Source: Chrysemys picta bellii (Eukaryota > Chordata > Testudines > Emydidae). Taken from it: a DNA stretch of 64,000 bases. Location of the stretch: contig NC_088791.1 in the NCBI RefSeq assembly GCF_011386835.1, forward strand, positions 57,431,498 to 57,495,497. Reading direction: 5' to 3'. Of this stretch, positions 583-61,706 are shown piece after piece. A program made the position numbers and the translations under genes. The notes below the pieces were generated by a model, which made no database searches, had not been told where the DNA came from, and saw only the letters and a list, made by a program, of their open reading frames with translations. Each line of letters opens with the position of its first letter. Position 1 is the first letter of the stretch.

Positions 583-781
583 ATCAGAGGGGTAGCCGTG
601 TTAGTCTGGATCTGTAAAAAGCAACGGAGAGTCCTGTGGCACCTTTAAGACTAACAGATGTATTGGAGCATAAGCTTTCGTGGGTGAATGCATCTGATGA
701 AGTGGGCATTCACCCATGAAAGCTTATGCTCCAATACATCTGTTAGTCTTAAAGGTGCCACAGGACTCTCTGTTGCTTCTT
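583..781 (-). mobile_element. Penelope-terminus foldback F1
   Basis: This is a 199-base inverted repeat. The left arm starts with a 'gtagccgtgttagtctg' block and runs through 'ggcacctttaagactaaca' to 'gcttaag-like' sequence; the right arm is its reverse complement. The insertion is bounded by an exact 15-base direct repeat, AAATATCTGTATTGT, at 568-582 and 782-796. The arms match the 3' terminus of the GIY-YIG Penelope elements at 30845-33044 and 50855-51979. The left arm is the longer one, so the sense strand of the 3' end is minus. The right arm carries an intact hammerhead-like core, CTGATGA at 694-700 and GAAA at 718-721. Confidence 0.85.
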
Positions 782-796
782 AAATATCTGTATTGT

Positions 797-2249
797 TACC
801 CAATCTTCAGTATCAGATGGTTGGTGTAAAAATCCAAATAGAAGTTGGGTATTCTTCACACCCCTAACTTAAATAGCTAAAGACAATACAGCCTCTAAAT
901 AATAATAATAAATTATAGACCTAAAAACAACTAGCAGTTTATTCTTCTCCGGGTGAGGGGTGAAGAGACTGGGGATGGATGTGACAGAGTGAATACACAA
1001 TGCATGGTTACTTGCCATACCGCCATATGTTCAGAAATTAAGTACCATTTGAGTTGCTGACCCACAGATGAGTAAGAAACAGAAAGATGTACAGATAGAG
1101 TGGGACGGGCTTACTCAGAGTGAGAAAGCCAGTATTGCATTGCAAAAAGATCAAGGAGGAATGAATGGGTAATTTTCCTTAGAAGGAAACCCTTTTCAGC
1201 AATAGATGGTATAGGTGATCATTCTTCTGACAGCAAGAAAGTCTTTTAGGGTGAAGGTTGGACTGAACTGTGCTAAGCAAGCCAGTTGCGGAGGTTGGGA
1301 ACTCAGGAATATAGATATCTGGTTGTAGGATGACCATGAGTAACTCAGGTAATATGTCTAGTAGGAATAAAGTGTCAGATCTCATGAGTAATGTAGATAG
1401 CCTTTTAGAGAGAGAGACTGACAAATCTGTTATCATACACACTCCAGAGCCAAAAAAAAAAAATGCAAAATTGAAAGCATACTACAGACCTCTGGATCAA
1501 ACAGTGATATAGTGCTGAGATGGATCAGTTGGAACAAAATCCATTAGCACAATAATGAAAGTAGTTGAATCAGGAAGTAGTTAGTGTGGTTACAATGCTG
1601 TAACAATGATCAAAATGAGCCAGATTTAAATGAGTAGTCCCATTGAAGTTAATGGTATTACCAATATATGAGTAAAGGGGATCACAATCTGGCATTATAT
1701 AGTTAAGTTTACATATAGTGAGAAAATACTGCCTCTGAATGTTTCAAAGGAGGATTTTTTTCTTTAACTGAAAAACTTATTTGGAATGAAAGGGAAAGTT
1801 AGGAAATTATTATCTATAATTTCAACAAGGAAGTCTCACAAAAGTCTCTCAAAGAAGGGTCACAGAAGGTCTGTATTTTTCAGAAAAAAACAAAGGAAGG
1901 AAAAAACAGTATGATTAAATGACAAGGTACAGGAATTCATCTGGGTCCTCAATGTATCCTTCAGAAACGGAAACCCAGCTACAGCAATGCTAATAGAATG
2001 GAACATTTGGCAGACAACATCTAACACAGAGATTAAAAGGAAGCTAAGAGGACATACAAAGAACAAAAAGTCAAAGATATTAAGATGAAGAATAAGAAAT
2101 TATTTAAGAAAATTATTTAAGTAAATCATACATAGGAAGCTAACTACAGTAAGTATATCTGTTACACTGCTAAATGGTAAGGGGCCAAGCAAACAGCATA
2201 AAGATACTTCCGTGAAGCTAAATGATTTATTTGGCTGTCTTCTCTACAG
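797..2249. other. Unassigned AT-rich sequence
   Basis: I see no gene. A short A11 run lies near 1452-1462. A weak palindromic repeat may lie at 1617-1693, where the ends resemble 'gccagatt' and 'aatctggc'. The rest looks like old, diverged or unique intergenic DNA. Confidence 0.5.
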
Positions 2250-3200
2250 GAGGTTGGGATGAATTTTTACCCTGAAGTTACTCAAGTTACAGCTAGTGAT
2301 GCTGAAGCCCTAATGGATGAAGAGCTATTAAAAATATTGGTGATGGAACAACTTAAGAAATTTCAGTTGTAATCAATCACAGGATCAGATTATATTTATC
2401 TGAGGTTCTGAAGGAACTAAAGAATGAAACACAATAGCTGGCATACTATAATTTATCACTAAAGATATGTAATTTATCATTACAACAGACATTCTCCTGG
2501 ATAAGTGGAAGGTGGCCAACATTGTACCAATCTTTAAAATAGCTCTTAAGGCTGACCCTGGGAAGTGAAGATCAGAGAGGCTTAATTCAGTAACAGGAAT
2601 AATAGTTGAGTAAATCATTGAAGGTAATTATGAAACACCCACAGCAGATAAGTATGAAAGAGAGGAAAATTCAGTATGGGTAAATTGCAAGTCACCACAG
2701 ATAAACTGATATCCTTATCAGTGAGGATAAATTGTGCCTCCAAAACCTGTTAAAATTTTATAGAAGAGTTAGCAAAATATTGAATAAAAAGAATCAGTGG
2801 ATATGCATTTAGAGAGACATTTCAAAGGTATTCGATAATATCATTCACAAGAGGCTTTTAAGGAAACTTGGTGACCCGGGGGTAAGAGATAAAGTCTTTT
2901 TTATGGATTAAAGGGAAAGAGAAACGGACAGGAATAAATGGCCAGTACTCAGTATGGAAAGATGTTAATAGTGGGATGACACAAGGAGTACTACAAGATT
3001 AGTATTGGGATCAATTTCACCCCTCCCTCTAGCCCCATATATTTGTTAATGACTGGGGAGAGAGGATGAATAATGAGGTGGCAAAACTGCTGACAACACA
3101 AAGCTATTTAAATTGGACAAAACTAACTCCTGGATGATGTAACAAAACTGGCAACAGGGTGGCAAATGAAATTCAGTGTATCCAAATGCAATGTAATAGA
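2250..3200 (+). mobile_element. Degenerate CR1/L3-type LINE fragment
   Basis: Broken plus-strand reading frames resemble a non-LTR reverse transcriptase. At about 2500-2545 the DNA reads as DKWKVANIVPIFK, close to the DWKxANxxPIFKK block upstream of the RT fingers in CR1-group LINEs. Near 2830-2860 a decayed palm block follows, and at 3045-3190 a block ending in a 'cKW-x-MxF-x-KCKV'-like stretch is recognisable at DNA level. Stops and frameshifts are frequent, so no protein is made. The family call, CR1 or L3, is by motif only. Confidence 0.6.
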
Positions 3201-3441
3201 TATAGAACAAACTATTTAAACTACTTGTATACATTACTGGATTCAGAGTAAATTACAGTAGAATCTTGCTAATTCACATTAATAGCTTGGAAAATTATGA
3301 ATTTTTGTTATTAATTCATAAGTGAACAAACAAAAAACTCCACAAAGCAGGCATCGTGTATTCTGTTCATCTATTTTTAAAATATTGACTTTCATTTTAT
3401 TTTAATACATCATAATGTATTAGTGATGCACAGTTAATATG

Positions 3442-3667
3442 CAAAAAGAAGAACAGGAGTACTTGTGGCACCTTAGAGACTAACAAATTTATTAGAGCAT
3501 AAGCTTTCGTGGACTACAGCCCACTTCTTCGGATGCATCCGAAGAAGTGGGCTGTAGTCCACGAAAGCTTATGCTCTAATAATAATAAATTTGTTAGTCT
3601 CTAAGGTGCCACAAGTACTCCTGTTCTTCTTTTTGCGGATACAGACTAACACGGCTACTACTCTGAA
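3442..3667 (+). mobile_element. Penelope-terminus foldback F2
   Basis: This 226-base foldback has a left arm starting 'caaaaagaagaacagg' and a right arm that is its reverse complement and extends further, to 'ggatacagactaacacgg' and 'tactctgaaa'. An exact 12-base direct repeat, ACAGTTAATATG, flanks it at 3430-3441 and 3668-3679. The right arm is complete and the left arm truncated, so the sense orientation is plus. The right arm has a small expansion, AATAATAATAAA, where other copies have AATAAA. The hammerhead-like core has CCGAAGA in place of CTGANGA. Confidence 0.85.
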
Positions 3668-4101
3668 ACAGTTAATATGTTCATTTGCCATTGCTAGGAG
3701 TGGGGGTTGCAAAGTGTTTGCCTCTCATAATATTTCTGAAGTCTCAGCAGGCAAACAATTCTGAAGAGTGGGCCAACTAATGAGTTTGGCCTTCCTTTAC
3801 CCACACGCAGATCCAGATGGCTCCTGCTGTGGGGAGTTCTCAGATGCCTTCATAAAAAACACAGACATGGGCCAGAGAGTGAGCAGAAAGCAGCCTTCCC
3901 AAATTGAAAGCCTGACCGTCTCCAGATATCCATGTGCAGAAGGGTGCTTCTGGATGGAAGGTGGGGTGAGACACAACCATAACAGCATTTAATCTCGTTC
4001 CTCTGATCCTGGGTGAAGCCAGGGAGCCATGAAGGGGGAGAAGGAAGGAAGGGAAAAGCTCAGAACCAGGCCTGGATAGGGGAAACAAGTTAATTTACAT
4101 T

Positions 4102-4211
4102 GGGCCTAATCCTCCCTTTACTTACACTGGTGTAAATCTGGAGAGACTCCACTGAAGTCAACAACATTACTCTGGTGTAAAACTGGTATAAGTGAGAGCA
4201 GAATCAGGCCC
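4102..4211. repeat. Palindromic MITE-like repeat
   Basis: The segment begins GGGCCTAATCC and ends in GAATCAGGCCC. Internal blocks 'ctggtgtaaatctgga' and 'ctggtgtaaaactggt' are typical of a palindromic interspersed repeat common in turtles, crocodilians and birds. It has no coding capacity. The family name is left open. Confidence 0.55.
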
Positions 4212-4629
4212 TTAGTCTCTCCCTCAATTTCTCAGAAGCTAATACTTTTTAAAACCATATCAACCTCTGAGTGGAATTCCCTGCACTGCATACCCAGGGG
4301 CAGCAGCAGGCAAAGGAAACTCCAGTTGAACCAAATGTGTTTATGTATGTTGGGGAAGTGATAGGTGAACAGGGTAGGACAGGGGGCCACATAATCAGAG
4401 CAGTCAGTTCTGAAGCATCCATCAGTGTCCTATGTTGGAAGACTATTTCTACAAATTTCCATGGCTTGTATGATCTATTTCAGCTGGTTCAGACAACACA
4501 ACCAAACCTTCATTCCTCAGAGAAGCCCAAGCCATCAAGGCCCCAATCCATAAAAGCCAGGAAAAAATGCTAATGTGGTATATAGAGCTTAAAACTCCAT
4601 GTTGTGTGTGGCATACAGGTTATTCTGTG

Positions 4630-4925
4630 CTGAGAGCTGTGGTAATCACTTGAAACTTGAAGGGTGGGTCTTTAAAGAGAGTGGGTTTAGCCCCACCTGT
4701 GACTAATTAGCTGCCTCCCAGGTGACGGGCTGCCAATTGGGATCAGGTGATGATCTACTCATCATCTGGTCCTTAGCTAAGATCTATAAGCAGGTCAGTT
4801 GGCCCTAGGAAGGAGGCCAGAACTCTTTTGGTTTAAGAAATAAACCCATTCTAGAGGAAGAGATTGAAATTCTGCTACTGTTGCTGGGACCCTTATTTCC
4901 AGCCTGGCCAATGTGTTGTCCCACT
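4630..4925 (+). mobile_element. Possible solo LTR
   Basis: A TATA-like 'ctataagcagg' near 4785 is followed about 50 bases later by the polyadenylation signal AATAAA in 'agaaataaaccc'. That arrangement is typical of a retroviral or gypsy LTR. I found no convincing TG...CA ends or target duplication, so this is tentative. Confidence 0.3.
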
Positions 4926-7329
4926 GGCTCATACTCACTCTTTTTTATGGCTCTGGATGAAGCACATCAGAGATTTCACCACATGTGCCTTCTGTCTAAC
5001 AGAAAGTCTCTATCCATTGTACACCTAATTCCCTATACAAACATGTACTGACCTCTGTGGAAATGCACCTACATTCTAAAAACTGGAATGGCAAAGGAAT
5101 TTGATAGTATTACCAACACCAGCAATTTTACTGTGTGTCTTGCAATATATAGTATTTTTCCTTGAAGCCCCAGGTGCTGGAGTCAAGCAATTGCAGAGAA
5201 TCTCAGCTTTCATTTTAAAAAAAAGTGAATAAAAGCTTGAACATGTGACCCAGGTCAGAAACCAAATCACAAATAAAGAGAACCCAGAATGTATTATCCT
5301 TAAATATGCATGATTCTTAAGCCAATTTCATGGTTTTGGGGTCTGACTCATGATTTTTGATTGCTTGAGGTTGTCAATAATGTGGGAAGTGGAGGGAAAG
5401 AGGACCAGATTGCGACAGGCCACTGTGAAGATGTGTAGTGGGAGAAGGGAGAGGCAGCACACAAAAAGCCTTTTGCAATTGCAGTCCCTGTGCTCTGGAT
5501 TGCAGAGACTCTTCCCTCCGATTTCCCGGGGCGTGCCTGGCATTCCAAAGACGTGAGGAGGGGGGGAAAGCCACTCACCACCAGACTTCAGTCACGCCAA
5601 CCACAGCAGGCTTCATCATCCCAAAGGACTCTCTCCCCAAGCTCCTGAAGTGGTGCTGCAGCTCATAACTTAATCTGTGACACACTGCTTAAAATGGTTA
5701 CCATGGATGCATCTTTGGTAGCAAATCATATATATTCATCTGCCATGTTTACATTATCCTCCTCACACAGGTGGAGTATTTATTATACACATTAAGATAT
5801 TCTGAGAAGCATTAGCTGTGGCTTGAACACTTCACCTTAATAGTGACAATACCATTACTGGCCTATGGTACCTCAACAATAAAGCAAATTTGTGGTAGAA
5901 GGGTGGGACCATTTAACGCCAAAGCCTTTATACTACCAGTTACGTTTGGGCTCAGAGGAAAGTATTAAGATATCTATTTTGTTTTGTCCAGTTTTTGATA
6001 TTTATTAAATAACTTTCAGTAAATCATTTAAAAAGACAAGTTAGCATACAGTAGGCAGCACCATAAGAGTATATAGATTTCTGACAAAGGAATAACACGG
6101 TTAGATCTTGAAAAGAACTGGTAACTAACAAAGGGATCATCCAAGTATAAATAATAGGAATAGGAGCCTTCCATTATTTTCAGACATCATTTTCCAAAAG
6201 TAGTTTACTTTTCTTTGTTTTTTTCTCCCTGGCTGTTAATAACACACGTGTGTAGTTTTCCAACTGAATACTGAGTCCATGTGGATGCCATTTCAGCTTA
6301 GTGTTTACAAGGTTATGGTAAATAAAACAACACAGAGCATTAATAAGGAGCAGAATAACATGTAATGCAATTCTGAAGAATTCACACCACTGTTATTCAT
6401 CTTCTGTGACTAAATAATAGTTGAGGTGTCTGAAAGGACAGATGGGAATTGAAAGCAATGCACTTGGAAGAAAATGGAGATTACAACTATCCCTCCGATA
6501 ATTTGAAACGTATTCTCAAGCTTCTTCAAAAATAAATGCAGAGCTCAAGGTCAGAAAATACATTACTTAGAATCAACCATTAGAATGCAGAACAGCCTCA
6601 TAACAGACTTTGCTGTCTGCAGAGATCTTGCATTTGTCTTCATCAGTAGTGCAGTATCCCAGTACTAAGAGTGTCTTGATATAAAATATTAGGACTATAT
6701 TGAAGTTACTTATTGATTATAGCTACAGTGCATGACTAGCTACTCTATACTTATTATACTCCAAATATCCTGTTCTGGAATACACTGGGCCTGGTTTAAC
6801 ATTTGTGATGGATTCTTGGGGCTTTGTCTCTCTCTCTCTTTCAGTTGTTCTGAAATCCTGTTCAGGAATTTGGTGGGAAAATTTTTCCAGGATGTTACAC
6901 ATCACTCCTCCCCCACACTCCAAAATGAAAATTAACTGGGGTTCATAAGAGGAAGGCAAGTGATCTTCTGTTTGTCTGTCCTCACTCTCGCTCTATAATC
7001 TGATCACCACTCTCAGTGCATTATCTCCAGTTCTAATAGTAGCCTATATGGCTTTCTAGTGTGCTGGGCTCCCAAGCACAATGGCAACAGGAGCTATACC
7101 TCTCAGTAGATGTTCATGGTCACCAGGAGATTTCCTCCAGTAGATAGCAAAAGTGTGGCTTATCAAAGGCAGCAGGTTGGCATAAGCAGCAAAATGTTAA
7201 CAGGAACAAGATTCTCTTTCTTAGGAACTGCTTGTTTGTTTAACAATGCTAATTTAAAAAAGACAGCCTTTATGAGCTAGATCAAAGGTGTGGTTTAGTC
7301 CTGCAGTGAGGGAATTGAGTTTTGTATCA
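4926..7329. other. Unassigned sequence, no gene seen
   Basis: This 2.4 kb holds no recognisable coding region. Short open frames near 5350-5670 overlap on both strands and show no protein family. A short pyrimidine run, 'tctctctctcttt', lies near 6828-6842. It may be unique intergenic DNA with very old repeats. Confidence 0.5.
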
Positions 7330-7600: not shown

Positions 7601-7647
7601 AGCTTCAGCAGAAGAGATTGAGGGAGTCCCACACCAGAATATCCCAT

Positions 7648-8199: not shown

Positions 8200-8535
8200 G
8201 CCAAGGAGCTCAATCTATTGCTCTTATCAAAGAGAAGGTCAGACTTGATCAGAGTTTACAAGTACCTACATTAAGACAAATTTAGACTAGAAATAAGATA
8301 CAAAATTTTAACAATGGGGTTAATTAACCATTGAAACAACTTCCCAAGTGTATTGATAGATTCTCCATTATGGGAAATTTTAAATCATCAAGATCAGATG
8401 TTTCTCGAAAGGATATGCTCTAGTTCAAATGGGAATTAATTCAGGAAAGTCCTATGGCTTGTGTTATGCAGGTAGTCAGATTAAATGATCACAAGTGGTC
8501 CCTTTTAGCTGTATCATCTAACCCTATAATCAGTC
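8200..8535 (+). mobile_element. CR1-group LINE 3' end
   Basis: The block 'aaggtcagacttgatca' and the end 'gatcacaagtggtccctttt' followed by 'atctaaccctat' resemble the 3' end of CR1-group LINEs, where 'gatggtcccttctggcc' and 'atctatga' motifs precede the tail. There is no open frame of note. It probably belongs with the RT fragment at 7330-7600. Confidence 0.55.
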
Positions 8536-9391: not shown

Positions 9392-9424
9392 AAGCTAGTC
9401 TGCTGTAGATTTATACCTCAGCTT

Positions 9425-15168: not shown

Positions 15169-15180
15169 AACCTATATGCT

Positions 15181-15377
15181 AAAAAAAGAAGAACAGGAGT
15201 ACTTGTGGCACCTTAGAGACTAACAAATTTATTAGAGCATAAGCTTTCGTGGACTACAGCCCACTTCTTCGGATGCATCCACGAAAGCTTATGCTCTAAT
15301 AAATTTGTTAGTCTCTAAGGTGCCACAAGTACTCCTGTTCTTTTTGCGGATACAGACTAACACGGCTGCTACTCTGA
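15181..15377 (+). mobile_element. Penelope-terminus foldback F3
   Basis: This 197-base foldback is flanked by an exact 12-base duplication, AACCTATATGCT, at 15169-15180 and 15378-15389. The right arm is complete, to 'ggctgctactctgaa', and the left starts at 'aaaaaaagaagaacagg'. At the centre the right arm lacks about 20 bases found in F2 and F6, passing from GGATGCAT directly to CCACGAAAGC. The 5' half of the hammerhead-like core is therefore missing from the sense arm. The sense orientation is plus. Confidence 0.85.
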
Positions 15378-15771
15378 AACCTATATGCTGTGACTCTTAC
15401 ATTAGAATAAAATGTATATTACACATCAACTGTTATGAAACCATGAAATCTCACTGATAGGCATAAGGCAACTCATTTTCTTCTGTTTTTATCTTGTTAG
15501 ATCCTTTATCTATTTAAGGATCTAAATAGAAAGGTTCCTTAAAACTACTTCACCATTGACAATGCAGAGAAAATTTTTCTGTTATAAATAAACAAACAAA
15601 CTGCTTTATACACCTTAGAGGTTGTAGGGGATGGTCATGCTGTAACCAATTAAAAAAACCTGAGATTTTAACATCCCAGTGAATAAGATCTCATTGTTTT
15701 GATATTCATCCAGGGACTCTGGAGAGCAAGAGTGAAGGAAGCACAGATCCGTAGAACCATAGAAACTAGAG

Positions 15772-15987
15772 TATCAGGGGGTAGCCGTGTTAGTCTGTAT
15801 CTACAAAAACAACAAGGAGTCTGGTGGCACCTTAAAGACTAACAGATTTATTTGGGCATAAGCTTTCGTGAGTAAAAACCTCACTTCTTCGGATGGCATC
15901 CGAAGAAGTGAGGTTTTTACTCACGAAAGCTTATGCCCAAATAAATCTGTTAGTCTTTAAGGTGCCACCAGACTCCTTGTTGTTTTT
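15772..15987 (-). mobile_element. Penelope-terminus foldback F4
   Basis: This 216-base foldback is flanked by an exact 13-base duplication, ATAGAAACTAGAG, at 15759-15771 and 15988-16000. The left arm is complete, starting 'tatcagggggtagccgtg'; the right arm stops at 'cttgttgttttt'. It belongs to the 'aaaaacaacaaggagtctgg' subfamily, the same as the Penelope copy at 30845-33044. The centre reads CTTCTTCGGATGGCATCCGAAGAAG, a near-perfect palindrome. The sense orientation is minus. Confidence 0.85.
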
Positions 15988-16000
15988 ATAGAAACTAGAG

Positions 16001-25438: not shown

Positions 25439-25450
25439 AGTGTAATATCA

Positions 25451-25690
25451 GAGTGGTAGCTGTGTTAGTCTGTATCAGCAAAAACAACGAGAAGTCCTTG
25501 TGGCACCTTAGAGACTAACAAATTTATTTGGGCATAAGCTTTCGTGGGCTAAAACCCGCTTAGTCATATATATACTGCTTACTGTATTTTTCACTCCATG
25601 CATCTGATTAAGTGGGTTTTAGTCCATGAAAGCTTATGCCCAAATAAATTTGTTAGTCTCTAAGGTGCCACAAGGACTCCTCGTTATTTT
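25451..25690 (-). mobile_element. Penelope-terminus foldback F5
   Basis: This 240-base foldback is flanked by an exact 12-base duplication, AGTGTAATATCA, at 25439-25450 and 25691-25702. The left arm is longer (from 'gagtggtagctgtgttag'), so the sense strand is minus. A spacer of about 45 bases, including 'catatatatactgcttac', separates the arms, so it includes more of the 3' untranslated region than the other foldbacks. The hammerhead-like core in the right arm is damaged, CTGATTA at 25604-25610. Confidence 0.85.
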
Positions 25691-25789
25691 AGTGTAATAT
25701 CATACTCTTACAATAAACACATGCAACTACCCTTTTTCCTGTAAAGGAATTATAGCGTCATTGCCTGGCTAATTTCTTACTCTAATTAT

Positions 25790-30407: not shown

Positions 30408-30879
30408 ATGAAAGACAAAAATACCCTATTACCCATGGGCGAAACTTTTCACAAAGCGATCACTTCATATCTGACCTATCAGTCATCATCCTCAAAGGAA
30501 ACCTGCACAACACCTCTAAAGATGAGCCTGGGATCTTAAATTCACAACTCTGCTGGACACTAAAAATCACAGACCAAACAGAGAGAGTGGTTTTATGGCT
30601 CATTAAAACAATTAACCTTCTAACCTTCCTTTCTCCTGCAGAGCTGTTAATTTCCCCACTTCATTTTAAATGGTCTCATGCAACACGTGTTAACCCCATA
30701 TGTTTAATAATCTGTCCCACCGTGACACTCTGGTCACCTTTTCCAGACGCAAAGAAGAGCTCTGTGAAGCTTGAAAGCTTGTCTCTTCCATCAACAGAAG
30801 TTGGTCCAGTAAAAGATATTATCTCACCCACCTTGTCTCTCTCAAAAACAACAAGGAGTCTGGTGGCACCTTAAAGACT

Positions 30880-31169
30880 CAGGCTAGGTCTACACTACCC
30901 GCCTGAATCGGCGGGTAGAAATCGATCTCTTGGGGATCGAATTATCGCGTCTCGTCGGGATGCAACAATCGATCCCCGAATCGACACTCTTACTCCACCA
31001 GCGGAGGTGGGAGTAAGCGCCGTCGACGGGGAGCCACAGAGGTCGATTTTGCCGCCGTCCTCACAGCGGGGTAAGTCGGCTCCGATAGGTCGAATTCAGC
31101 TACGCTATTCACGTAGCTGAATTTGCGTATCTTAAATCGACCCCCCCACCCCCGTAGTGAAGACCTGCC
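30880..31169. mobile_element. MITE nested in the Penelope terminus
   Basis: This segment of about 290 bases interrupts 'ttaaagact|aacagattta', a join seen intact in foldback F4. Its ends are imperfect inverted repeats: CAGGCTAGGTCTACACTAC on the left, and GTAGTGAAGACCTGCC on the right. The most that can be said for a target duplication is the dinucleotide CT. Internal CpG-rich inverted blocks such as 'ggggatcga' and 'tcgatcccc' are conspicuous. Confidence 0.78.
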
Positions 31170-31326
31170 CTAACAGATTTATTTGAGCATAGGCTTTCGT
31201 GGGTAAAAACCTCACTTCTTCAGATGCATAGAGTGAAAGTTACAGATGCAGGCATTATATACGGACACATGGAGAGCAGGGAGTTACTTCGCAAGTGGAG
31301 AACCAGAGTTGACAGGCCCAATTCAA

Positions 31327-31755
31327 TCAGGGTGGATGTAGTCCACTCCCAATAATAGATGAGAAGGTGTCAATTCCAGGAGAGGAAAAGCTGCTTCTGT
31401 AATGAGCCAGCCACTCCCAGTCCCTATTCAAGACCAGATTAATGGTGTTGAATTTGCAAATGAATTTTAGTTCTGCTGTTTCTCTTTGAAGTCTGTTTCT
31501 GAAGTTTTTTTGTTCAATGATAGTGACTTTTAAATCTGTAATAGAATGACCAGGGAGATTGAAGTGTTTACTTACCGGCTTATGTATGTTACCATTCCTG
31601 ATGTCCGATTTATGTCCATTTATTCTTTTGTGGAGGGACTGTCCGGTTTGGCCAATGTACATGGCAGAGGGGCATTGCTGGCACATGATGGCATATATAA
31701 CATTAGTGGATGTGCAGGTGAATGAGCCCTTGATGGTGGGAGGTGCTGTAGTCAT
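31327..31755 (-). pseudogene. GIY-YIG endonuclease of Penelope element A
   Basis: This 142-codon minus frame contains NVIYAIMCQQC, MYIGQTGQSL and KRINGHKSDI, the GIY-YIG nuclease core as found C-terminal to the reverse transcriptase in Penelope-like elements; the family uses it to nick target DNA. After the core come DLKVTIIEQKNF and RETAELKFI. The frame is open, but it is cut off from its reverse transcriptase by the inversion, so it cannot make the native fusion protein. The first ATG is not a natural start. Confidence 0.85.
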
Positions 31756-33010
31756 AATGAACAGGTCGGATTATGAACAGGAGGCTGCCAAGCAACTCTC
31801 CAAGACCACATTCTACAGGCCACTATCCTCTGATCCCACTAAGGAATACCAAAAGAAACTACACCATCTGCTCAAGAAATTCCCAGCTACAGTACGGGAA
31901 CAAATCTACATGGACACACCCCCAGAACCCCGACCAGGGGTATTCTATCTGCTACCCAAGATCCATAAACCCGGAAACCCTGGACGCCCCATCATCTCAG
32001 GCATTGGCACTCTTACAGCAGGATTATCTGGCTATTGGGACTCTCTCCTCAGACCCTACACTACCAGCACTCCCAGCTATCTTCGAGACACCACTGACTT
32101 CCTGAGGAAACTACAATGAATTGGTGTTCTTCCTGAAAACACCATCCTGGCCACCATGGATGTAGAAGAACTTTACACCAATATTCCACATGAGGATGGA
32201 CTACAAGCTGTCAGGAACAGTATCCCTGATGAGGCCACAGCAAGCCTGGTGGCTGAGCTTTGTGACTTTGTCCTCAACTACAACCACTTCAGATTTGGGG
32301 ACAACTTATACCTTCAAGTCAGTGGCACTGCTATGGGTACCCGCATGGCTCCACAGTATGCCAACATTTTTATGGCTGACTTAGAACAACGCTTCTTCAG
32401 CTCTTGTCCCCTAGTGCCCCTCCTCTACTTGCGCTACATTAATGACATCTTCATCATATGGACCCACGGAAAGGAGGCCCTTGAAGAATTCCACCTGGAC
32501 TTCAACAATTTCCACCCCACCATCAACCTCAGCCTGGACCAGTCCACACAAGAGATCCACTTCCTGGACACTACAGTGCAAATAAGTGATGGTCACATAA
32601 ATACCACCCTATACCGGAAACCTACTGACTGCTATACGTACCTACATGCCTCCAGCTTCCATCCAAGACACATCACATGATCCAATGTCTACAGCCAAGC
32701 CCTAAGATACAACCGAATTTGCTCCAACCCCTCAGACAGAGACAAACACCTACAAGATCTTTATCAAGCATTCATAAAACTACAATACCCACCTGGGGAA
32801 GTGAGGAAACAGATTGACAGAGCAAGACGGGTACCCAGAAATCACCTACTACAGGACATGCCCAACAAGGACAATAACAGACCACCACTGGCCATCACAT
32901 ACAGCCCCCAGCTAAAACCTCTCCAGCGCATTATCCACTATCTACAACCTATCCTGGAAAATGATCCCTAACTCTCACAGACCTTGGGAGGCAGGCCAAT
33001 CCTCACTTAC
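31753..33010 (+). pseudogene. Penelope-type reverse transcriptase, inverted part
   Basis: The plus strand encodes most of a Penelope RT: FYLLPKIHKPGNPGRPIISG (fingers), ATMDVEELYTNIPHEDGL (palm motif A, with the Asp kept), GTAMGTRMAPQYANIFM (motif B), then RYINDIFIIW (motif C) at about 32431-32460. Motif C normally carries two Asp after Tyr-x; here the first is Asn (aat at 32440-32442), which would abolish catalysis. In-frame stops lie at 32117-32119 and 32678-32680. The frame runs head-to-head with the endonuclease at 31755. PLE polymerases are related to telomerase. Confidence 0.87.
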
Positions 33011-33489
33011 AGACAACCCCTTGCAGTCAGGCTAACCCCTGATACTTGTCTCTCTCATATCCTGGGACCAACACAGCTACCACAATACTGCAAACAACAA
33101 TGAATACTAGAATGCTGACATTGTACTAGCTGTTTTGCAAACACAAGTGTTGTCTGTGATCATAAATCAGATACAGTTTATCTGATCCTCCATTATCCAG
33201 ATCTCTGTATTAACCAAACAGCCAGCTCTCACACAGGAATATGGGAAATTGATATCACCTCCATGGCAACACTACTGTAACCATTGTGTCTTTTCAGCCT
33301 TTTAAAATGACTGTGATTACTAAACAAAAATGTGTAGTGCTGTCATTGAATGCTAAAATAGATTATTAATAGATTTTTAAAAAAGGAGAGTCATTGGCAA
33401 AAATAGCCAAGATTATAACATTGGAAAAAGCACAGTATTGGATTTCAAACACCATGCCAAGCAAATTCTTATATATAGCATGAATAACT

Positions 33490-50854: not shown

Positions 50855-51979
50855 GCGTAGAGACTGTCCGGTTTGGCCAATGTACATGGCAGAGGGGCAT
50901 TGCTGGCACATGATGGCATATATCACATTGGTAGATGTGCAGGTGAACGAGCCCCTGATGGTATGGCTGATGTGATTAGGTCCTATGATGATGATGTCAC
51001 TGGAATAGATATGTGGACAGGCCCAACAAAGAAAATAACAGAAAATAACAGAACACCACTAGCTGTCACCTTCAGCCCCCAACTAAAACCTCTCCAGCGC
51101 ATCATCAGAGATCTACAACCTATCCTGAAAGATGATCCTTTACTCTCACAGATCTTGGGAGACAGACCTGTCCTCGCTTACAGACAACCCCCCAACCTAA
51201 AGCAAATACTCACCAGCAACCACACATCACTGAACAAAACCACTAACCCAGGAACCTATCCTTGTAACAAACCCCGATGTCAACTCTGTCCACATATCTA
51301 TTCCAGTGACATCATCATAGGACCTAATCACATCAGCCATACCATCAGGGGCTCGTTCACCTGCACATCTACCAATGTGATATATGCCATCATGTGCCAG
51401 CAATGCCCCTCTGCCATGTACATTGGCCAAACCGGACAGTCTCTACGCAAAAGAATTAATGGACACAAATCTGACATCAGGAATCAAAATACTCAAAAAC
51501 CAGTGGGAGAACACTTTAACCTGTCTGGTCATTCAGTGACAGACCTGCGGGTGGCTATATTACAACAGAAAAACTTCAAAAACAGACTCCAACGAGAAAC
51601 TGCTGAGCTAGAATTGATATGCAAACTAGACACAATCAACTCCGGTTTGAATAAGGACTGGGAATGGTTGGGCCATTACAAACATTGAATCTATCTCCCC
51701 TTGTAAGTATTCTCACACTTGTTATCTAACTGTCTGTCTGTGCTGGGCTAGCTTGATTATCACTTCAAAAGTTTTTTTTCTCTTAATTAATTGGCCTCTC
51801 AGAGGTGGTAAGACAACTCCCACCTGTTTATGCTCTCTGTATGTGTGTATATATATCTCCTCAATATATGTTCCATTCTATATGCATCCGAAGAAGTGGG
51901 CTGTAGTCCACGAAAGCTTATGCTCTAATAAATTTGTTAGTCTCTAAGGTGCCACAAGTCCTCCTGTTCTTCTTTTTGC
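50855..51979 (+). mobile_element. Penelope-like element A, 5' foldback copy
   Basis: The copy runs from an inverted 5' arm to the family terminus at 51888-51979 ('gaagaagtgggctgtag' to 'tgttcttctttttgc'). The first 166 bases, 50855-51020, are the near-exact reverse complement of 51286-51448 (a 3-base indel is the main difference). It interrupts the gypsy pol between the integrase N-terminal region and its C-terminal part, which resumes at about 51987. No target duplication is visible and gypsy integrase core is missing, so insertion came with a deletion. Confidence 0.85.
51021..51688 (+). CDS. GIY-YIG endonuclease of Penelope element (RT C-terminus plus nuclease)
   Basis: An uninterrupted plus frame enters from the inverted arm (ATG at 50873, not native) and is native from about 51021. 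It holds PQLKPLQRIIRDLQPILKDD and ILGDRPVLAYRQPPNL, the region after the RT thumb, then a Cys/His-containing linker, CNKPRCQLCPH. The GIY-YIG core follows: NVIYAIMCQQC, MYIGQTGQSLRKRINGHKSD and later RETAELELICKL. It ends with a stop at 51686-51688. The nuclease domain looks intact, but the RT is absent, so this copy cannot move on its own. Confidence 0.85.
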
Positions 51980-51986
51980 AAACTAT

Positions 51987-52392
51987 ATGTTCCATCCTCG
52001 CTTTCATCTGAACGGTCATCCCATGAAGTCCCCGGTACCTGCTGTCTTAGATCTAGCTACCAATTTCCACCAAGTGTACCAGGAACTCAAGGTGCAATTA
52101 CAAACCACTAAAGAAACATGTAAATATCACACTAACCAGGACTGCCAGGGAGCCCCCGACCTTGCTGTAGGAGACACAGTCTGGCTGTCTACCCACAATC
52201 TTAAATTGACTTGTCTCCCTGGGCCAAACTAAACCACCAGTATCAGGGCCCTTTCAAGACTGAGGCACAGATTAACCTGGTAATGTTCAAATTGCAATTA
52301 CCTGAGTCCCTGAAGATTCACCCTGTATTTCATGTCTCCCTCCTGAAACTGTATACTGAGAACACCTTCCCACACCATTTCAGCCCTCCACC
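51987..52392 (+). pseudogene. gypsy integrase C-terminal region
   Basis: The frame reads FHPRFHLNGHPMKSPVPAVL, then a decayed 'ELKVQLQTTKETCKYHTNQD' block, LAVGDTVWLSTHNLKL, and in a shifted frame LNHQYQGPFKTEAQIN and LPESLKIHPVFHVSLLKLY. These are the GPF/Y module and preceding linker of chromovirus integrases, which bind DNA and lead into the chromodomain. The catalytic core is missing upstream. The hAT MITE at 52393 interrupts the frame. Confidence 0.82.
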
Positions 52393-53470: not shown

Positions 53471-53570
53471 AAGCAAATTTTATCCTGTGTGACTCTGGAA
53501 ATATTTTCTTACTGACTAATTAAAATGATTCCAGTTCTGAGGTACATGAAGGATTTTTAGGAAATGTTAC

Positions 53571-55242: not shown

Positions 55243-55416
55243 GTTTAGCAAACCTTTTCCAGCCCCTGAGTGGAACAGAAGTGTCCATTATTCAGTTTAT
55301 TTTCTATTACAAATTTCTCTGAAAAGATAAGGGGAGGGATTCTCACTCCAACTGAGGGTTCCGCATACTCCAGTGGTGGTAAAGAGGGGCCACAAAAGCC
55401 CCTTAGCCAGGCCAGG

Positions 55417-55715
55417 GAAGTTACTTACCTGTACCTGGAGGTTCTTCAAGATGTGTGATCCCTATATGTATTCCACTGAGTGTTTATGCATGTGCACCAT
55501 GCTTCCAGAGCCAGAGAATTTGAAAGTAGTGATGTCCATTGGTCCATGCATGTGCCCTGATTCACCTCCTGGTTTCGGGAGGTGCCGACCATGTCTCCAG
55601 TTCCTTCTCCACCACAAATACAACAGATCTGGAGCAGAGGAGAAGGAGGGCAGGACGTGGAATATAGATAGGGACTACACATCTCAAAGAACCTCCAGCT
55701 GCTGGCAAGTAACCT
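55417..55715. repeat. DIRS terminal inverted-repeat hairpin
   Basis: The left arm, 55417-55476, and right arm, 55657-55715, are about 60-base inverted repeats with a few mismatches. The best block is 'ggaggttcttcaagatgtgt' compared with the complement of 'acacatctcaaagaacctcc'. The spacer is 180 bases. In DIRS elements, terminal repeats and an internal complementary region template the closure of the circular intermediate. Confidence 0.75.
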
Positions 55716-55879
55716 CCTCTGCTTCTTCTTTGGGTGATGCTCCCTATTGTATTCCACTGAGGGTGACTAGCAAGCAGGACCTAAGTTGGAAGGATGGTGC
55801 GAGAATGAAGGCGGGAGAGATGAGCGGAGGACAGCTGCACCGAAAGAAGCATCTGTCGCAGAGTTCTGCACTAAGGCAT

Positions 55880-56794
55880 AATGTATAGCAAAGGTGTGTA
55901 CCAAACTCCACATGGATGCTCTACAAATATCCCAAAGCAGTACATCATAGAGGAAGGTCATGGTCAAATCCTGGGCTCTCGCTGAATGGGCCCGCACCCC
56001 TGAGGATGGCTGGAGGCTAGATGATTGATAGCAGAGCATAATGCACTCCAAAATTCACTTAGATATTCATTGTGTGAAGATTGACTGCCCCGGAACTTTT
56101 TCAGCTATTGCACCACACAATCTGGGGGACTCTCCTGATCAGTTTTGTCCTCTGCAGGTAGAAAGCCAAGGCCCAATGGACATTGAGAGAGTGGAGTCAC
56201 TGTTCCTCTTCTGAGGCATGGGCTTTGGGAAGAAAGCAGGTAAGTGAATGGATTGAGTAACATGAAATTGGCTGATGTCATTTGGCAAAGAATTGGGATG
56301 CAGGCACAGGTATACTTTATAGAAAGTCATGAAAGGAGGGTCTGCATCATAGCCCCAAGCTCACTGACCCTTCTCATTGACATGATAGCAATAAGGAAGG
56401 CCACCTTCATGAAAAGCAGGGATATTGAACACAATGCCAGCGGTTTAAAGGGTGCTTTCATTTGTACAGATAGAAACAAGTTGAGGTCCCATTGGGGAGC
56501 AATGGGTTGTAGAGATGGGAAAGTTCTGACAAGGCCCTTCCAAAACAGAGCAGTCAACAGGTGGGTAAAGATGGAGTGTCCTTCCACAGGGCGGTGAAAG
56601 GCTCTAACTGCCAGTAAGTGGACCTTGAGAGAGCTAAGGGTGAGACCTGATCCCTGCAAGAACAGAAGATAGTCCAGGAGGAGGAAAATCCCCACTGCTT
56701 CTGTGTTCTGCCCAGGAAGCAAAGCGTGTCCACTTGACTCAGAAACAATGCCTAATGGATGCCTTCCTGCTGCTGGAGAGGATGTTTTGCACAT
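55880..56794 (-). pseudogene. DIRS tyrosine recombinase
   Basis: The minus frame 56794-56327 contains SGLTLSSLKVHLLAVRAFH, then PQWDLNLFLSVQMKAPFKPL and SMRRVSELGAM, holding the first catalytic Arg of tyrosine recombinases. Further downstream, after stops, at about 55990-55900, GVRAHSARA gives the H-x-x-R pair and VHTFAIHYAL the nucleophile Tyr region. The R...HxxR...Y set is thus visible, but the frame is interrupted. It would have inserted the circular DNA copy. Confidence 0.82.
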
Positions 56795-56872
56795 CTAGAG
56801 AAGATGCCCATCCAAATACCAAGCTCTGATGTGATGCACTTGTGGATTGGGATGGCTGATGTTGCTATTGTG

Positions 56873-57498
56873 TCAGCATATCGGGTAGAGCAGGGATGGG
56901 GATTGGGGGATGGACAGACATACAAAGGAGGTCAGGAAACCAAAACTATAGTGGGCAATCAGAATGACTGTTGCTTTGTCCCATCTGCTCTTGTGATGGA
57001 GCAGGAGAGGAGCGGAGGCGTAACTGAGTTGGTCCGACCAAGGGAGGATGAGAGGATCGCCCTGAGAGTGGTATTCCAAACTCCCTCTGGAACAATATGC
57101 ACTACATTTCCTGTTCACTGGGGATGCGAAGAGGTCCCCGGTCAGAGTTCCCCATTTGTTGAAGATGTCACATTGTATGGTGTCATGGAGTTCCCACTCG
57201 TGGTTGATCGTGAACCCTCTGCTGAGCATGTCTGCAATCACATTCTGAGTCCCTGGGAGATAGGCTGCAGATAAGATGATCTGGTAAGTGATGCACCAGT
57301 GCATCTGAGCACAGAGCTGTTGACCTCATGCCCCCATTTGTTGATGTAACGTGCAGTCGTGGTATTGTCTGACATGATGAGACTATGATGGGAATGGATG
57401 AGTGGGAGAATGGCCTGCCATGTCTTCCTTACAGCTCTGAGCTCCAGAATGTTGATGTGCATTCTGAACTCCTGAGCAGTCCATATTCCCTGTGCCAT
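56873..57498 (-). pseudogene. DIRS RNase H domain
   Basis: The minus frame 57498-57238 contains INILELRAVRKTWQAILPLI and SLIMSDNTTTARYINKWG; ELRA with its Glu and SDNTT with its Asp are the RNase H catalytic blocks as found in DIRS. Frame 57304-56873 continues with ILSAAYLPGTQNVIADMLSR, the block with the last Asp. The two frames overlap and differ, which indicates a shift. Confidence 0.82.
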
Positions 57499-57751
57499 GT
57501 GTTCACCATGTGCGCTCCCCAGCCTAGTAGGGAAGCATCAGTGATAATCGTCTTGTCCAGGGAGGGGTGGTAGGGATGAGATGATCTTGGGGGGAACTGA
57601 CAGCCTGAGGTCCATGGTGTGATGATTGGGTGAGTAAACCATCTGGAGCCACATCTGCAGGCACAGAAGGCGAAGCAAAGATGGTAACATATGTGGCCCA
57701 GAAGGGACAGGTAAGTCCTGGCTGTGACTGAAGGACTGTTGACTACATGAT

Positions 57752-58830
57752 TTATGAGTTATTACAGAACCTGACCCGTGGTAGGTAGGCTTGTGCAGTG
57801 ACTGAGTTGATGGCAGCCCCTATAAAGTCTAGGCATTGTGTGGGATTTAAGGGTTGATTTTTCAACTTGATACTAATCCTGAGGGAAGAAAGGAGGTCAT
57901 GCAATATGGAGGTTGACACTTGGGCCTCGCATCTGGACCGTACCTCCAGGAGCCAGTTGTTGAGATATGGGAATATGAGAACCTCATAACGCCTGATGTG
58001 GGCCACTACAATGGAGAAGACCTTGGTGAAAATTCTGGGAGCAGTAGTGAGTCCAAAGAGAAGGACTCTGAATTGGAAATGTTGCAAGCTGACCGTAAAC
58101 CTCAGGAAACATCTGTGGGCCAGATGACTGTCTATGTAAAAGCAGGCATTCTGAATATCAAGAGCCGTAAACCACATGCCTTTTTCTAATGAGGGGATGA
58201 TCACTGCTAGCGTGACCTTATGAAACTTGGGCTTGCAGATGAACCGACTGAGAAGACGAAGGTTCAGAATCGGCCTCCCCCACCTTCACTTTTCCTTGGT
58301 TATTAGGAAGTAAGTTGAATAGAACCCCATTTCTTGATATTCCAGAGGACCATGCTCTATCGCTCCTCTTTGTAGTAAAGAGTTCATTTCCTGGGTGAGG
58401 ATACTGTCGTGAGAGTGGTCCCTGAGGAGAGATCAGGGGTGAGGGTGGGAGCTGTGGATGAGATAGCGTGATGAACTTGTGGATGACATTTAACACCCAT
58501 TTTGTCCATTGTTATTGCACTCCAATCTGGAAAAAAGAGTGCTAGATAATCCCCCAAAAGGACTGAGGAGTTTGCACAGTAGTAGGCAGAAATATCTTTT
58601 CTGTGAGGTTGTATCTGGGAGGTGGGCTCAGAGGGCACGATCTGTGAATTTTTTTTGACACTTCCAGAGTGGTTCATAGGACTTCTGATGAAAAAAATGG
58701 GTGGTCCTGTAATGTTGTGTAGGGGGCGGTGCAGGCATGTAAATACCCAAGGAATGCAGAGTTGTTCTGGAATCCTTGAGAATATGGAGGGAATCATCCG
58801 TTTTGTTATTAAAAAGATGGGATTCATAAA
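57752..58830 (-). pseudogene. DIRS reverse transcriptase
   Basis: The minus frame 58204-57752 reads EKGMWFTALDIQNACFYIDS (palm motif A, with its Asp), then FRVLLFGLTTAPRIFTKVFS (motif B) and LIFPYLNNWLLEVRSR (motif C). In DIRS, motif C is YLDDWL; here both Asp are Asn, so the polymerase is dead. Downstream, CLDFIGAAINSVTAQAYLP matches the connection region. Frames 58496-58218 and 58827-58384 hold the fingers and linker. Confidence 0.86.
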
Positions 58831-59127
58831 AAGGGAAATCTTACATGGTATTTTGTACCTCTCTAGGGAAACTAAAGGAGTGGAGCCACAATTCCCTCTG
58901 CATGACTATTCCCGTAGCCATGGACCCTAAGCCAATTGACGTCCTCACCACCAGTTTACCTTAGTCTATGATTGTCTGGTGTTGCTGCGGTAGCTTTTTG
59001 GCAAATTTGTCCAGTTTACAGTAATTCAGGAAATCATACTTGGGAAGCAATGCCTGGTAGTTTGAGATCCTGAACTGAAGGCCCAAGACCTTGCGACCCA
59101 AAAGGTCCAATCTCTTTCCCTCCTTAT

Positions 59128-59318
59128 CAGATAAGAACATAAGAACAGCCATACTGGGCCAGACCAAAGGTCCATCTAGCCCAGTATCCTGTCTTCCAAC
59201 AGTGGCCAGTGCCAGGTGCCCCAGAGGGAATGAACAGAACAGGTAATCATCAAGTGATCCATTCCCTGTCATCACCCATTCCCAGCTTCTGGCAAACAGA
59301 GGCTAGGGTCACCATCCC
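59128..59318 (-). mobile_element. CR1 LINE 3' end inserted in DIRS
   Basis: On the plus strand the segment reads 'ataagaacataagaacagcc', the complement of an 8-base tandem CR1 tail, then 'catactgggccagaccaaag' and 'gtccatctagcccagtatcc', the antisense CR1 3' untranslated region. It is truncated to about 190 bases, as is usual for 5'-truncated CR1 insertions. CR1 normally makes no clear target duplication and none is obvious here. Confidence 0.82.
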
Positions 59319-59329
59319 TGGATGTTGCT

Positions 59330-60733
59330 GCCTAGACTGGTCCGTCGCCTCCTGGACCACAAGAGAGTTGTAGGGGGGGTGAAAAAAACAGAAATTCAGA
59401 CCCCTTAGCAGGTACATAATAACACTCCTCCACCCCTTTGGAAGTAGACATACATGTGACCTCCTCCAGGGGATGTGAAGCTCTCCTGCCACTCTACACA
59501 GGAGATCCTGGAACTGACAGAAGTCATCTGGGAGTGAAGGGGATACTGAAGCCACTGCTGCATCTGGAGAGGAAGACAGGAATCTCTCCTGTTCCGTCGG
59601 TACCATTGGAATCGGGCTGAGTGGCTCTTCTTCCATCGCTTGTTCCGAGAGTTTGCTGGAAGGCGCACAAGACAGGGAAATCGATAAAGTGTGTCCTTCA
59701 CGGACCGGGCAGGTTCTGAAGATGGGTATTGGGACCAAGGTCCCCAAGAGGGCCAGCTTGCGGAATCCAGAGGGTGTTGTAGCGGACCCCACGGTGTGGG
59801 AAACCAGTGGCTCCATGGCAGCTGCAGCGGGGGATGCTGTCACAATGTAGGCAGTCTCCCAGAGTGCTCATATGGGCAGTATGGGAGGGACAGTTCCTGC
59901 CCATCATCCAACTTGTCTGAAAATGAAAACTCGACGTGGGTTCTATTGGTGGTACCGTCAGAGCTGGCGGGAAGTGTGTAGATCATTTGAGCAGGTGAGT
60001 GCTATGTCAACTGTGGCATGTCCTGAGGGGGAGTTATAATCTCCCTAGGTATGTAGAGGGTCCAGAAAGGTGTGGAGACATTGGGTCTCCCAGAGCAAAC
60101 ATGTCCTGGGGTTCTGGCACTCTCCCCAATCTCCCAGGAGTTAAGGATATTCTCTCCATACCCTGTACCAGCGCTGGAGCGGTAGACCTCCCCAAAGTGG
60201 ACAGGCCTCATGTCTTATTGGACACCGATGTTGATGGTGTCAGCGGTTCGGTATCCAGTACCGGCAGATGTGTCATCTAGTGAGGCCTCTTCTCATGCTT
60301 GTATGGCTTGCAGCATGTTCCCTCTCCATAACTGGAGGTTGTGGAAGGATTGTCCCCTTTCTTGGGCTTGGAGGACGACAATGTCATGCTTATAGCCATG
60401 CTTCCTTATCTCCACGCTAAGCCCAAGTGCAGGATCCATAGTGATGGTACCACTGCTGCTGGACTCGGACTCCGGAGCCAGAGGGGCACTCCTGGCACTC
60501 AAGCCCATGTCCAGGAGGGCTGCCTGATCTGGATCCGAATGAGACCTAAAGGTGACTTCCATGAGGTGCTTCCGGAGGCAGAGAGCTCGGCCCTCTCAGG
60601 TACAGCTGGGGAAGAATTGGCAGATACTGCACCTGGATGCAATGTGGCCCTCTCCCAAGCAGTAGAGGCAGCATGGATGTTTGTCGCTGACCTAGAAGGA
60701 ACGTGGGCAGGAGGTGCAGATTTTAAAGCCTAG
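59330..60733 (-). pseudogene. DIRS gag-like region
   Basis: Several minus frames (59843-59330, 60211-60002, 60562-60293) are proline- and serine-rich with no fixed fold. Position upstream of the RT and the codon-like composition support a DIRS gag, which is poorly conserved. The frames are broken. A CR1 tail at 59128-59318 has been inserted close by, and one frame runs into it. Confidence 0.5.
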
Positions 60734-61452
60734 GGTCTTCGGCATAATCCAGTACCCATATGTGGGTATGGGGTGGGGGGAGTTTACGAGAAAACAAACC
60801 CCTAAAGTACCTATTCTATTCTTAAAACTTCTAAAAACTCCTTAAACTGTTGACAGTTTGTTAACCAGCAGTCCAACCTGCCAATAGAAGACATTATTTA
60901 ATAAGACAGACAGGATATTGGCCATGTTGCCATCTTGCAGGTTGGGAGAGAGGGCATGTTAGTCTCCTTTATGCCTCTCTGTCTCTGTCTCTCTCTCTCT
61001 CTGTCTCTCACACACACACACACACACATACACCATTCCCAGAGCCTTCACCAGGCACATGGAATACTAGTCTCAGCTTTCAGCTGTACAGTGCCTGACA
61101 TAATGGGGCCCTGGATGCTAAGCCCTGCTGCAATATAGACCAACCAACCAACATTGTCTACTACTATGACTAGCTCTGCACATTAGACTGCAACAACAAG
61201 CAAGAGATAAGTATAGTTCATACTCCAACACCCTTATTCATTAGTGGTGCAAACTGAAAGCCAGCTTCAAGTGTGCTCTCACAAAGTCCAAAAGACATTC
61301 ATTATTTGGATTCAGACCTGGCCTTCACTGAATCGTGATAGCTTTTATACATGGAACTTAAAGAAACACACACCCACACATTGTGCATTTGTCACATCCC
61401 TAATAGACCCAAGTTTAGGACACATTTTGGGTTTTGTATTTAGTAACTCTAC
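60734..61452. other. Intergenic sequence with microsatellites
   Basis: A compound TC/CA repeat lies at 60975-61028. Nothing else is recognised. Confidence 0.5.
60975..61028. repeat. Compound (TC)n(CA)n microsatellite
   Basis: An interrupted TC repeat with TG interruptions runs to about 61008, then about ten CA units follow. It is likely polymorphic. Confidence 0.92.
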
Positions 61453-61464
61453 TTAACCATTATG

Positions 61465-61706
61465 ACAGGTTTCAGAGTAGCAGCCGTGTTAGTCTGTATC
61501 CGCAAAAAGAAGAACAGGAGTACTTGTGGCACCTTAGAGACTAACAAATTTATTAGAGCATAAGCTTTCGTGGACTACAGCCCACTTCTTCGGATGCATA
61601 TAGTCCATTCTATATGCATCCGAAGAAGTGGGCTGTAGTCCACGAAAGCTTATGCTCTAATAAATTTGTTAGTCTCTAAGGTGCCACAAGTACTCCTGTT
61701 CTTCTT
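61465..61706 (-). mobile_element. Penelope-terminus foldback F6
   Basis: This 242-base foldback is flanked by an exact 12-base duplication, TTAACCATTATG, at 61453-61464 and 61707-61718. The left arm is complete, starting 'acaggtttcagagtagcagc'; the right stops at 'cctgttcttc'. The arms are nearly identical, so it is probably young. The loop reads CATATAGTCCATTCTATATG, itself an imperfect palindrome, and matches the sequence just before the terminus in the copy at 50855-51979 ('tccattctatatgcatccg'). Confidence 0.88.

Follow-up and report, generated by a model that had tools for sequence, protein, structure and literature searches.

Penelope-like elements are retroelements whose listed peculiarities include inverted pseudo-long terminal repeats (pLTRs) and 3' extensions (PMC8969392). 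The insertions described here are six short foldbacks, with arms that match Penelope-like elements, in 64,000 nucleotides of the turtle Chrysemys picta bellii (assembly GCF_011386835.1, contig NC_088791.1, positions 57,431,498 to 57,495,497; "the window"), together with their relatives in the 2.37 Gb of genome that were searched. Each foldback probably represents one insertion of two head-to-head complementary DNAs (cDNAs), both copied from one and the same 5' leader, 95-130 bases long, of a Penelope-like messenger RNA (mRNA), one from each of two start sites. The probability of this reading is put at roughly 0.7.

A close parallel can be found in Poseidon_Ac (PAc) of Anolis carolinensis, whose protein cleaves and extends both strands of the target and, in vitro, uses two adjacent internal start sites with a spacing equal to the tail (PMC11167929). 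The hammerhead of this element is assisted by the protein and dispensable for insertion. The in vitro study goes as far as the extension of both strands and calls the later steps unvalidated (PMC11167929). Like Poseidon_Ac, the turtle elements combine a GIY-YIG endonuclease with a reverse transcriptase (RT), and their start sites are likewise close to the coding unit's 5' end. The preference for AT-rich targets is also shared (target duplications in the turtle are 67% A+T), and the foldback tail matches the interval between the two start sites of the anole protein (PMC11167929). A term search of the same report returned no passage on inverted or head-to-head insertions; in contrast to what is described for the anole, the tail rule, the products made of leader only and the joining of cDNAs where the mRNA starts are drawn from the present genome.

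Inverted pLTRs with a tail on one of them, and palindromes at the junction, have been described for Pen2a_Av of Adineta vaga and its relatives (PMC3846280). There, the inverted pLTR accompanies the body of the element and is ascribed to self-priming, whereas in the turtle most such insertions lack the body and self-priming is excluded in 23 of 49 cases. Another comparison is offered by hammerhead retrozymes, tandem repeats copied via circular RNA, which are likewise short and non-coding and occur in genomes with Penelope elements that have hammerhead motifs (PMC7229834). Minimal hammerheads occur within Penelope elements (PMC6155905, PMC7229834). Unlike retrozymes, the turtle foldbacks are single head-to-head pairs in all 50 mapped places, and the window gave no Rfam hammerhead match at gathering level.

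Inverted pLTRs and tails are already known. In the open-access literature searched, mostly by listing, no account was found of body-less foldbacks as the main product, of the one-tail rule or of an origin from the leader. Thousands of foldbacks serve as natural end products of Penelope insertion, and they allow start sites, template 5' ends, the pairing of strands and the joining step to be deduced. The inverted pLTR, the one-sided tail and the junction palindrome would all fall under a single scheme. With the arm roles re-assigned, what was known as an oddity of Penelope elements becomes a quantitative claim about integration that can be tested.

Arm anatomy and the one-tail rule

The arms of the foldbacks share one layout. 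Read outward from the motif ATGCATC (position 0), an arm extends as far as about +95, where a T-rich stretch lies; the tailed arm continues for about 34 bases more, to about +129. Both coding copies of the window stop at the untailed position. At the 5' end of the full-length relative L094, TATA is followed by ATGCATC, the arm and the tail. Next comes the first ATG of the open reading frame, with both start sites upstream of it. Because of this order, both outer ends of a foldback correspond to internal positions of the mRNA leader and not to the 3' end of the RNA. The frame of L094 is flanked by leader, arm and tail on either side, so that this one copy has a pLTR at both ends. The optional 3' tail of 30-40 bases that characterizes GIY-YIG-bearing Penelope-like elements is also present.

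ATGCATC would mark the 5' end of the mRNA, since the inner ends of the arms cluster there and a TATA-like site lies 31-34 bases before it. In five long copies, which represent four subfamilies, a matrix score over the preceding 80 bases puts the start of the best TATA match at -31 to -34; the match is weak in subfamily F1b.

Exactly one arm is tailed in all 50 consecutive foldbacks that were fetched and mapped. These are the first along C1 in the list of pattern matches, and 49 of them are independent. Twelve of the 50 are missing from the list of tail-pattern matches; all 12 are tailed and carry a change in the 7-base probe. The start positions are sharp. Among the 49, untailed arms start at 82-109, with modes at 89, 92 and 95, and tailed arms at 127-129, which is where the mapping reference ends. 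The class with neither arm tailed was judged from the same 50 places.

The same rule holds in other sets: 6 of 6 foldbacks in the window, 5 of 5 in a 200 kb sample (by eye) and all 20 relatives fetched for one window foldback, C (20 of 40 scored). Among insertions found through their tail, the far end is untailed in all 20 cases in which it was reached. Genome-wide, tailed arms facing an inverted arm were counted 4,460 times (2,194 + 2,266), against 28 matches to a double-tailed pattern of similar stringency, so that at most 28 stand against about 4,432. At least one of the 28 is not a true double end, as L136 enters an open reading frame on one side and lacks a duplication. If the two ends chose independently, the one-tailed share could not pass half. 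A further candidate for a double tail, L070, was rejected; its right tail continues into the start of the open reading frame and is hence internal.

The rule is not confined to subfamily F2, to which the main patterns belong. It is followed by the window foldbacks at 583, 15772 and 25451, by L026, L027, L031 and L038 at 9064 (by eye) and by an old foldback in L097. In subfamily F3 the one-tail pattern was found 943 times, and none of 100 among the matches listed overlaps another (by eye).

These products could arise as follows. The endonuclease/RT would cut both strands of the target, usually 12-13 bases apart, and each target 3' end would prime reverse transcription on the RNA of the element. 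One strand would start at the proximal site (about +95) and give the untailed arm, and the other at the distal site (about +129) and give the tailed arm. Both cDNAs would then extend toward the mRNA 5' end at ATGCATC and be joined there, in many cases via microhomology (the palindrome ATGCAT, for instance). With start sites this close to the mRNA 5' end, an mRNA of a single unit would yield the short product only; long coding copies would require read-through or tandem RNA. Target-primed reverse transcription had already been proposed in an earlier, sequence-only reading of the window, and is supported here.

Tentatively, and at somewhat less than even odds for all its parts together, Penelope integration may normally consist of two reverse transcriptions on one RNA, from sites about 34 bases apart, one per target strand. 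Exclusion at each site would leave every insertion with one cDNA that has a tail and one that lacks it; the cDNA started at the proximal site would tend to precede the other at the mRNA 5' end. Short foldbacks would be the default where the mRNA has a single unit, and in long copies the inverted pLTR would stem from the same event, with one cDNA extended much further.

Alternatively, the steps could be the same but take place on two RNAs held by a protein dimer, whose asymmetry, in place of exclusion on a single RNA, sets one start site per strand. This is a plausible variant, though on balance a doubtful one. The anole protein has a reported AlphaFold2 dimer (PMC11167929), and in 3 of 33 foldbacks the arms differ in a 3-base variant that lies close to the end of the arm. 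In the other 30 the arms agree (Fisher p 7e-6; classes LL 20, SS 10, SL 2, LS 1), although two RNAs from one locus would agree too. The 33 are the scorable ones among 42 F2 foldbacks, about half of which are junction-recruited relatives of foldback C. A fixed asymmetry is also at odds with the published assay, in which the start sites of the two strands were not seen to differ (PMC11167929). The two arms usually come from RNA of one locus, and possibly from a single molecule.

Junctions, target duplications and alternative origins

Evidence on the joining step comes from the inner ends of the arms. In the tail-anchored set, which was not selected by length, 19 of 38 inner ends fall between -6 and +3, and every other 10-base bin holds at most 4 (19 insertions with both ends read, values copied by hand). 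Among the 49 mapped foldbacks, the furthest-reaching arm ends in this interval in 40, an outcome to which the gap window used to find them is biased. Inner reach is longer for the untailed arm in 23 of the 49 and for the tailed arm in 10, and is level within 3 bases in 16 (sign test p 0.035). An early impression that the untailed arm is always the longer one inside was dropped on this larger set. A pooled count of 17:4 includes nine further cases, from the window or the sample and scored by eye, and is not the main figure. The bias agrees, though weakly, with one RNA on which the untailed cDNA leads and the tailed one follows.

Self-priming, as proposed for the inverted Penelope pLTRs of a rotifer (PMC3846280), would give a similar shape. 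In that case an antisense transcript or first cDNA would fold at the palindrome and copy itself, and the hairpin would then be inserted. The palindrome is found at many junctions and both arms usually carry the same variant; the level and the tailed-longer cases would permit it. In the 23 remaining cases, however, and likewise in the window foldbacks at 583, 15181, 25451 and 61465, the untailed arm has extra inner sequence and the tailed arm extra outer sequence. Because each arm holds sequence that the other lacks, neither was copied from the other in these 23. A copy and its template cannot exceed each other at opposite ends, and self-priming is therefore refuted for the reciprocal cases. 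It could hold for a minority at most, and is unlikely as the general origin.

The junctions differ among copies across the 50 consecutive places. The arms overlap by at least 4 bases at the junction in 17 of 49 foldbacks, compared with 3.6% in a simple null; the contrast is approximate, as the null consists of random exact joins and the observed overlaps come from local alignments. In 13 of 49, 1-24 bases lie between the arms. These junctions look like microhomology joining of two cDNA ends, aided by the palindrome ATGCAT.

Target duplications are 12-13 bases long in 31 of the 49 mapped foldbacks and at least 10 in 45 (range 10-17, modes 12-13). A second set shows at least 10 bases in 34 of 40. 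The lengths are not the 2 or 8 bases that would have pointed to a transposase.

Hairpins of this kind could also belong to a family of miniature inverted-repeat transposable elements (MITEs), or to some hairpin family that multiplies as such. Many near-identical copies do exist. Among 20 fetched relatives of foldback C nearly all have the junction of C, though the search probably recruited them by junction words, and they are left out of the frequencies. A DNA search with arm plus tail, in which very common words are skipped, had given 0 candidates. The widely differing junctions of the 50 consecutive places speak against such a family, as does the scarcity there of the C-type junction, which occurs in just 1 of 50 (L091, by eye) and with the roles of the arms swapped. 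The duplications vary from 10 to 17 bases, with no fixed length, the same shape occurs in at least four subfamilies, and the arms correspond to the terminus of an element with RT and endonuclease. A self-multiplying hairpin family is accordingly most improbable, and the sequence-only reading was right to set DNA-transposon MITEs aside. Annotators of repeats should be warned that such hairpins are not MITEs.

In the twin priming of long interspersed nuclear elements (LINEs), both target strands prime, and an inverted segment with a target duplication results. Where the second strand anneals within the one RNA is random, and a 5' inversion is the outcome. One coding copy of the window, at 30845-33044, fits this in shape, with an inverted RT part, a gap instead of an overlap toward the endonuclease part and a 13-base duplication, but it also ends in a tail-like 15-mer (14 of 15 bases). 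In contrast to LINE inversions, the arms of a foldback copy the same stretch of RNA twice, from fixed sites, and overlap almost wholly. A non-overlapping inverted 5' segment with a random junction was not found in the foldbacks, and twin priming of the LINE type has very little probability as their source.

Several points weigh against the reading of foldbacks as paired leader cDNAs. The position of the mRNA start is inferred from sequence. The gap window through which the mapped 50 were chosen gives preference to inner ends close to 0, and the inner reach shows a bias and no strict rule (23:10:16). Arms with differing 3-base variants occur, in the 3 of 33 foldbacks mentioned above. The published assay, in which no strand difference in start site was seen, does not by itself predict a single tail for each insertion (PMC11167929). 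Finally, single-armed insertions make up 11 of 35 in the tail-anchored set and 4 of 9 in the 200 kb sample, and a clear duplication accompanies only 1 of the 11, which means that another insertion outcome exists.

Foldbacks and coding copies of the window

The six inverted repeats reported by the sequence-only reading are all present, and the exact direct repeats that it noted adjoin their edges as target duplications of 15, 12, 12, 13, 12 and 12 bases. Flanks of 600 random positions matched over 9 bases at most; the sole match of 12 was the real duplication at 61465. A profile search of the window for arms (E up to 1) found the six foldbacks and two coding copies and no lone arm. One further match at 8423-8455, with an E of 0.97, was treated as chance.

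Within each foldback both arms belong to one subfamily, and by alignment four subfamilies are represented among the six. The arms at 3442, 15181 and 61465 belong to the subfamily of the coding copy at 50856-51979 (F2) and those at 15772 to that of the copy at 30845-33044 (F3). The foldbacks at 583 and 25451 represent two further subfamilies, which have no coding copy in the window.

Three foldbacks have the tailed arm on the left and the plus orientation in common with a fourth, A. Foldback A (583-781, plus, F1a) consists of an inverted tailed arm at 583-691, with its tail at about 583-615, and a sense untailed arm at 688-781; ATGC at the junction is common to both arms, and the 15-base duplication lies at 568-582 and 782-796. 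Foldback D (15772-15987, plus, F3) has its tailed arm on the left (tail about 15772-15804), its untailed arm on the right, level inner ends and a 13-base duplication at 15759-15771 and 15988-16000. Foldback E (25451-25690, plus, F4) likewise has its tailed arm left (tail about 25451-25479) and its untailed arm right, with a 12-base duplication at 25439-25450 and 25691-25702; on the upstream side, its untailed arm extends past the apparent mRNA start by about 33-37 bases. In foldback F (61465-61706, plus, F2), again with the tailed arm left (tail about 61465-61503) and the untailed arm right, this extension is about 14 bases, and the 12-base duplication occupies 61453-61464 and 61707-61718.

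The other two are in minus orientation, with the untailed arm on the left and the tailed arm on the right. In foldback B (3442-3667, F2; tail about 3635-3667) the palindrome ATGCAT closes both arms, and the duplication of 12 bases lies at 3430-3441 and 3668-3679. Foldback C (15181-15377, F2; tail about 15346-15377) has its 12-base duplication at 15169-15180 and 15378-15389, and its tailed arm misses the inner end by about 25 bases. The junction of C, GTGG followed by ATGCATCC, also occurs in L001-L019 with differing target duplications. At this type of junction the tailed cDNA stops at +25, as it does frequently.

The sequence-only reading had equated the arms with the terminus of the coding copies. 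This is correct for the untailed arm, which matches the ends of both; the other arm has an additional tail, and is longer at its outer end by 29-39 bases. The description of one arm as the complete 3' end and of the other as a shorter, inverted 5' arm has to be replaced. The arms differ by the outer tail instead, both outer ends would be starts of reverse transcription (proximal at about +95, distal at about +129 or slightly further out), and most inner ends coincide with the apparent mRNA 5' end or are close to it. At the inner ends the untailed arm is the longer in A, C, E and F, and B and D are level.

The Penelope origin of the arms, another claim of that reading, is supported by Pfam matches. 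RVT_1 (3.3e-11) and GIY-YIG (1.4e-5) are found in a single open stretch of the near relative L041, and GIY-YIG (5.4e-6) in the window coding copy, which has kept its endonuclease part.

The coding Penelope-like copy of subfamily F3 (30845-33044) has its endonuclease part and 3' end on the minus strand, with the RT part inverted to the plus strand. Its 3' end at 30845 is untailed, and its duplication of 13 bases lies at 30832-30844 and 33045-33057. The tail-like sequence at its inverted end, 33030-33044, reads GGCTAACCCCTGATA and is identical to the tail end in 14 of 15 bases; its score was equalled by 2 of 5,000 random positions. Perhaps distal-site priming was followed here by a template jump. 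A secondary insertion of about 270 bases at about 30885-31160, with apparently inverted ends (AGGTCTACACTAC and GTAGTGAAGACCT), interrupts the 3' end of this copy, and similar sequence splits L045.

The copy of subfamily F2 (50856-51979, plus) comprises the endonuclease part and an untailed 3' end. An inverted copy of its own 51286-51448 precedes the endonuclease part, and a TATA-like site is found 31-34 bases upstream of ATGCATC at 51882. A target duplication was looked for at the edges of this copy and none was found. Its right flank holds an open stretch at 51948-52232 that resembles the end of a Gypsy-type pol.

In Rfam searches for a hammerhead at E up to 10, there was just one chance match (51780-52000), and hairpin-type microRNA matches at 560-800 were all under their cut-offs. 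One arm folded together with its tail is no more stable than shuffled sequences (z -0.31). The motif CTGANGA...GAAA, presumably that of a hammerhead, can be seen in some subfamilies, with CCGAAGA in F2, when read off the sequence without scoring.

Abundance and single-armed insertions

The exact 37-base tail of F2 has 15,601 matches in the genome (7,835 + 7,766), a count that takes in the tails of long copies and internal tails; the reversed control gave 0. Foldbacks of F2 with intact 13-mers at the arm ends and a gap of 113-143 number 3,924, again with 0 in the control. Both figures are lower bounds for one subfamily. The inference that foldbacks are an abundant, regular product of a Penelope family is upheld by the 3,924 pattern-anchored cases. 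A 20-base arm pattern had no match in viral and prokaryote contig collections.

The share of inverted insertions was estimated from two sets. The tail-anchored set derives from the first 41 tail matches on C1, which represent 37 insertions. Rows L056, L076 and L104 were dropped as duplicates of L054, L075 and L103, and L050 and the second tail of L070 as internal tails. The initial scoring of 22 inverted and 15 single became 24 and 11 when L049 and L074 were reassigned to the inverted class and L045 and L080 set aside. The 200 kb sample consists of twenty 10-kb stretches at preset positions, searched by profile with E up to 0.001 and classified by eye. It holds 9 insertions, 5 of them foldbacks (L026, L027, L031, L032 and L038 at 9064) and 4 single-armed (L025, L035, L036 and L038 at 1577). 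With 24 of 35 and 5 of 9 inverted, the copies in these sets are not mostly single-armed, the outcome that would have spoken against a regular foldback product. Inversion is the majority outcome, and it is not obligatory. The window, with six foldbacks and two inverted coding copies, is denser than the sample.

Duplications are scarcer among single-armed insertions. In the tail-anchored set L096 has a clear one of 13 bases, L072 one of 8 bases and the others none. In the sample, L025 has one of 11 bases and L038 at 1577 one of about 10 (by eye), and none was found for L035, or for L036 followed into L041. Such insertions may be one-sided events that were sealed in another way.

Short single tailed arms without target duplication can be seen at L043, L048, L063, L065, L068 and L069, and the end of L048 coincides exactly with the apparent mRNA start. 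At L074 (165-496, tail-left orientation), a tailed arm running from 129 to 27 is followed directly by a second copy in the same direction that starts at 94, the proximal site, possibly by a template jump to a start site.

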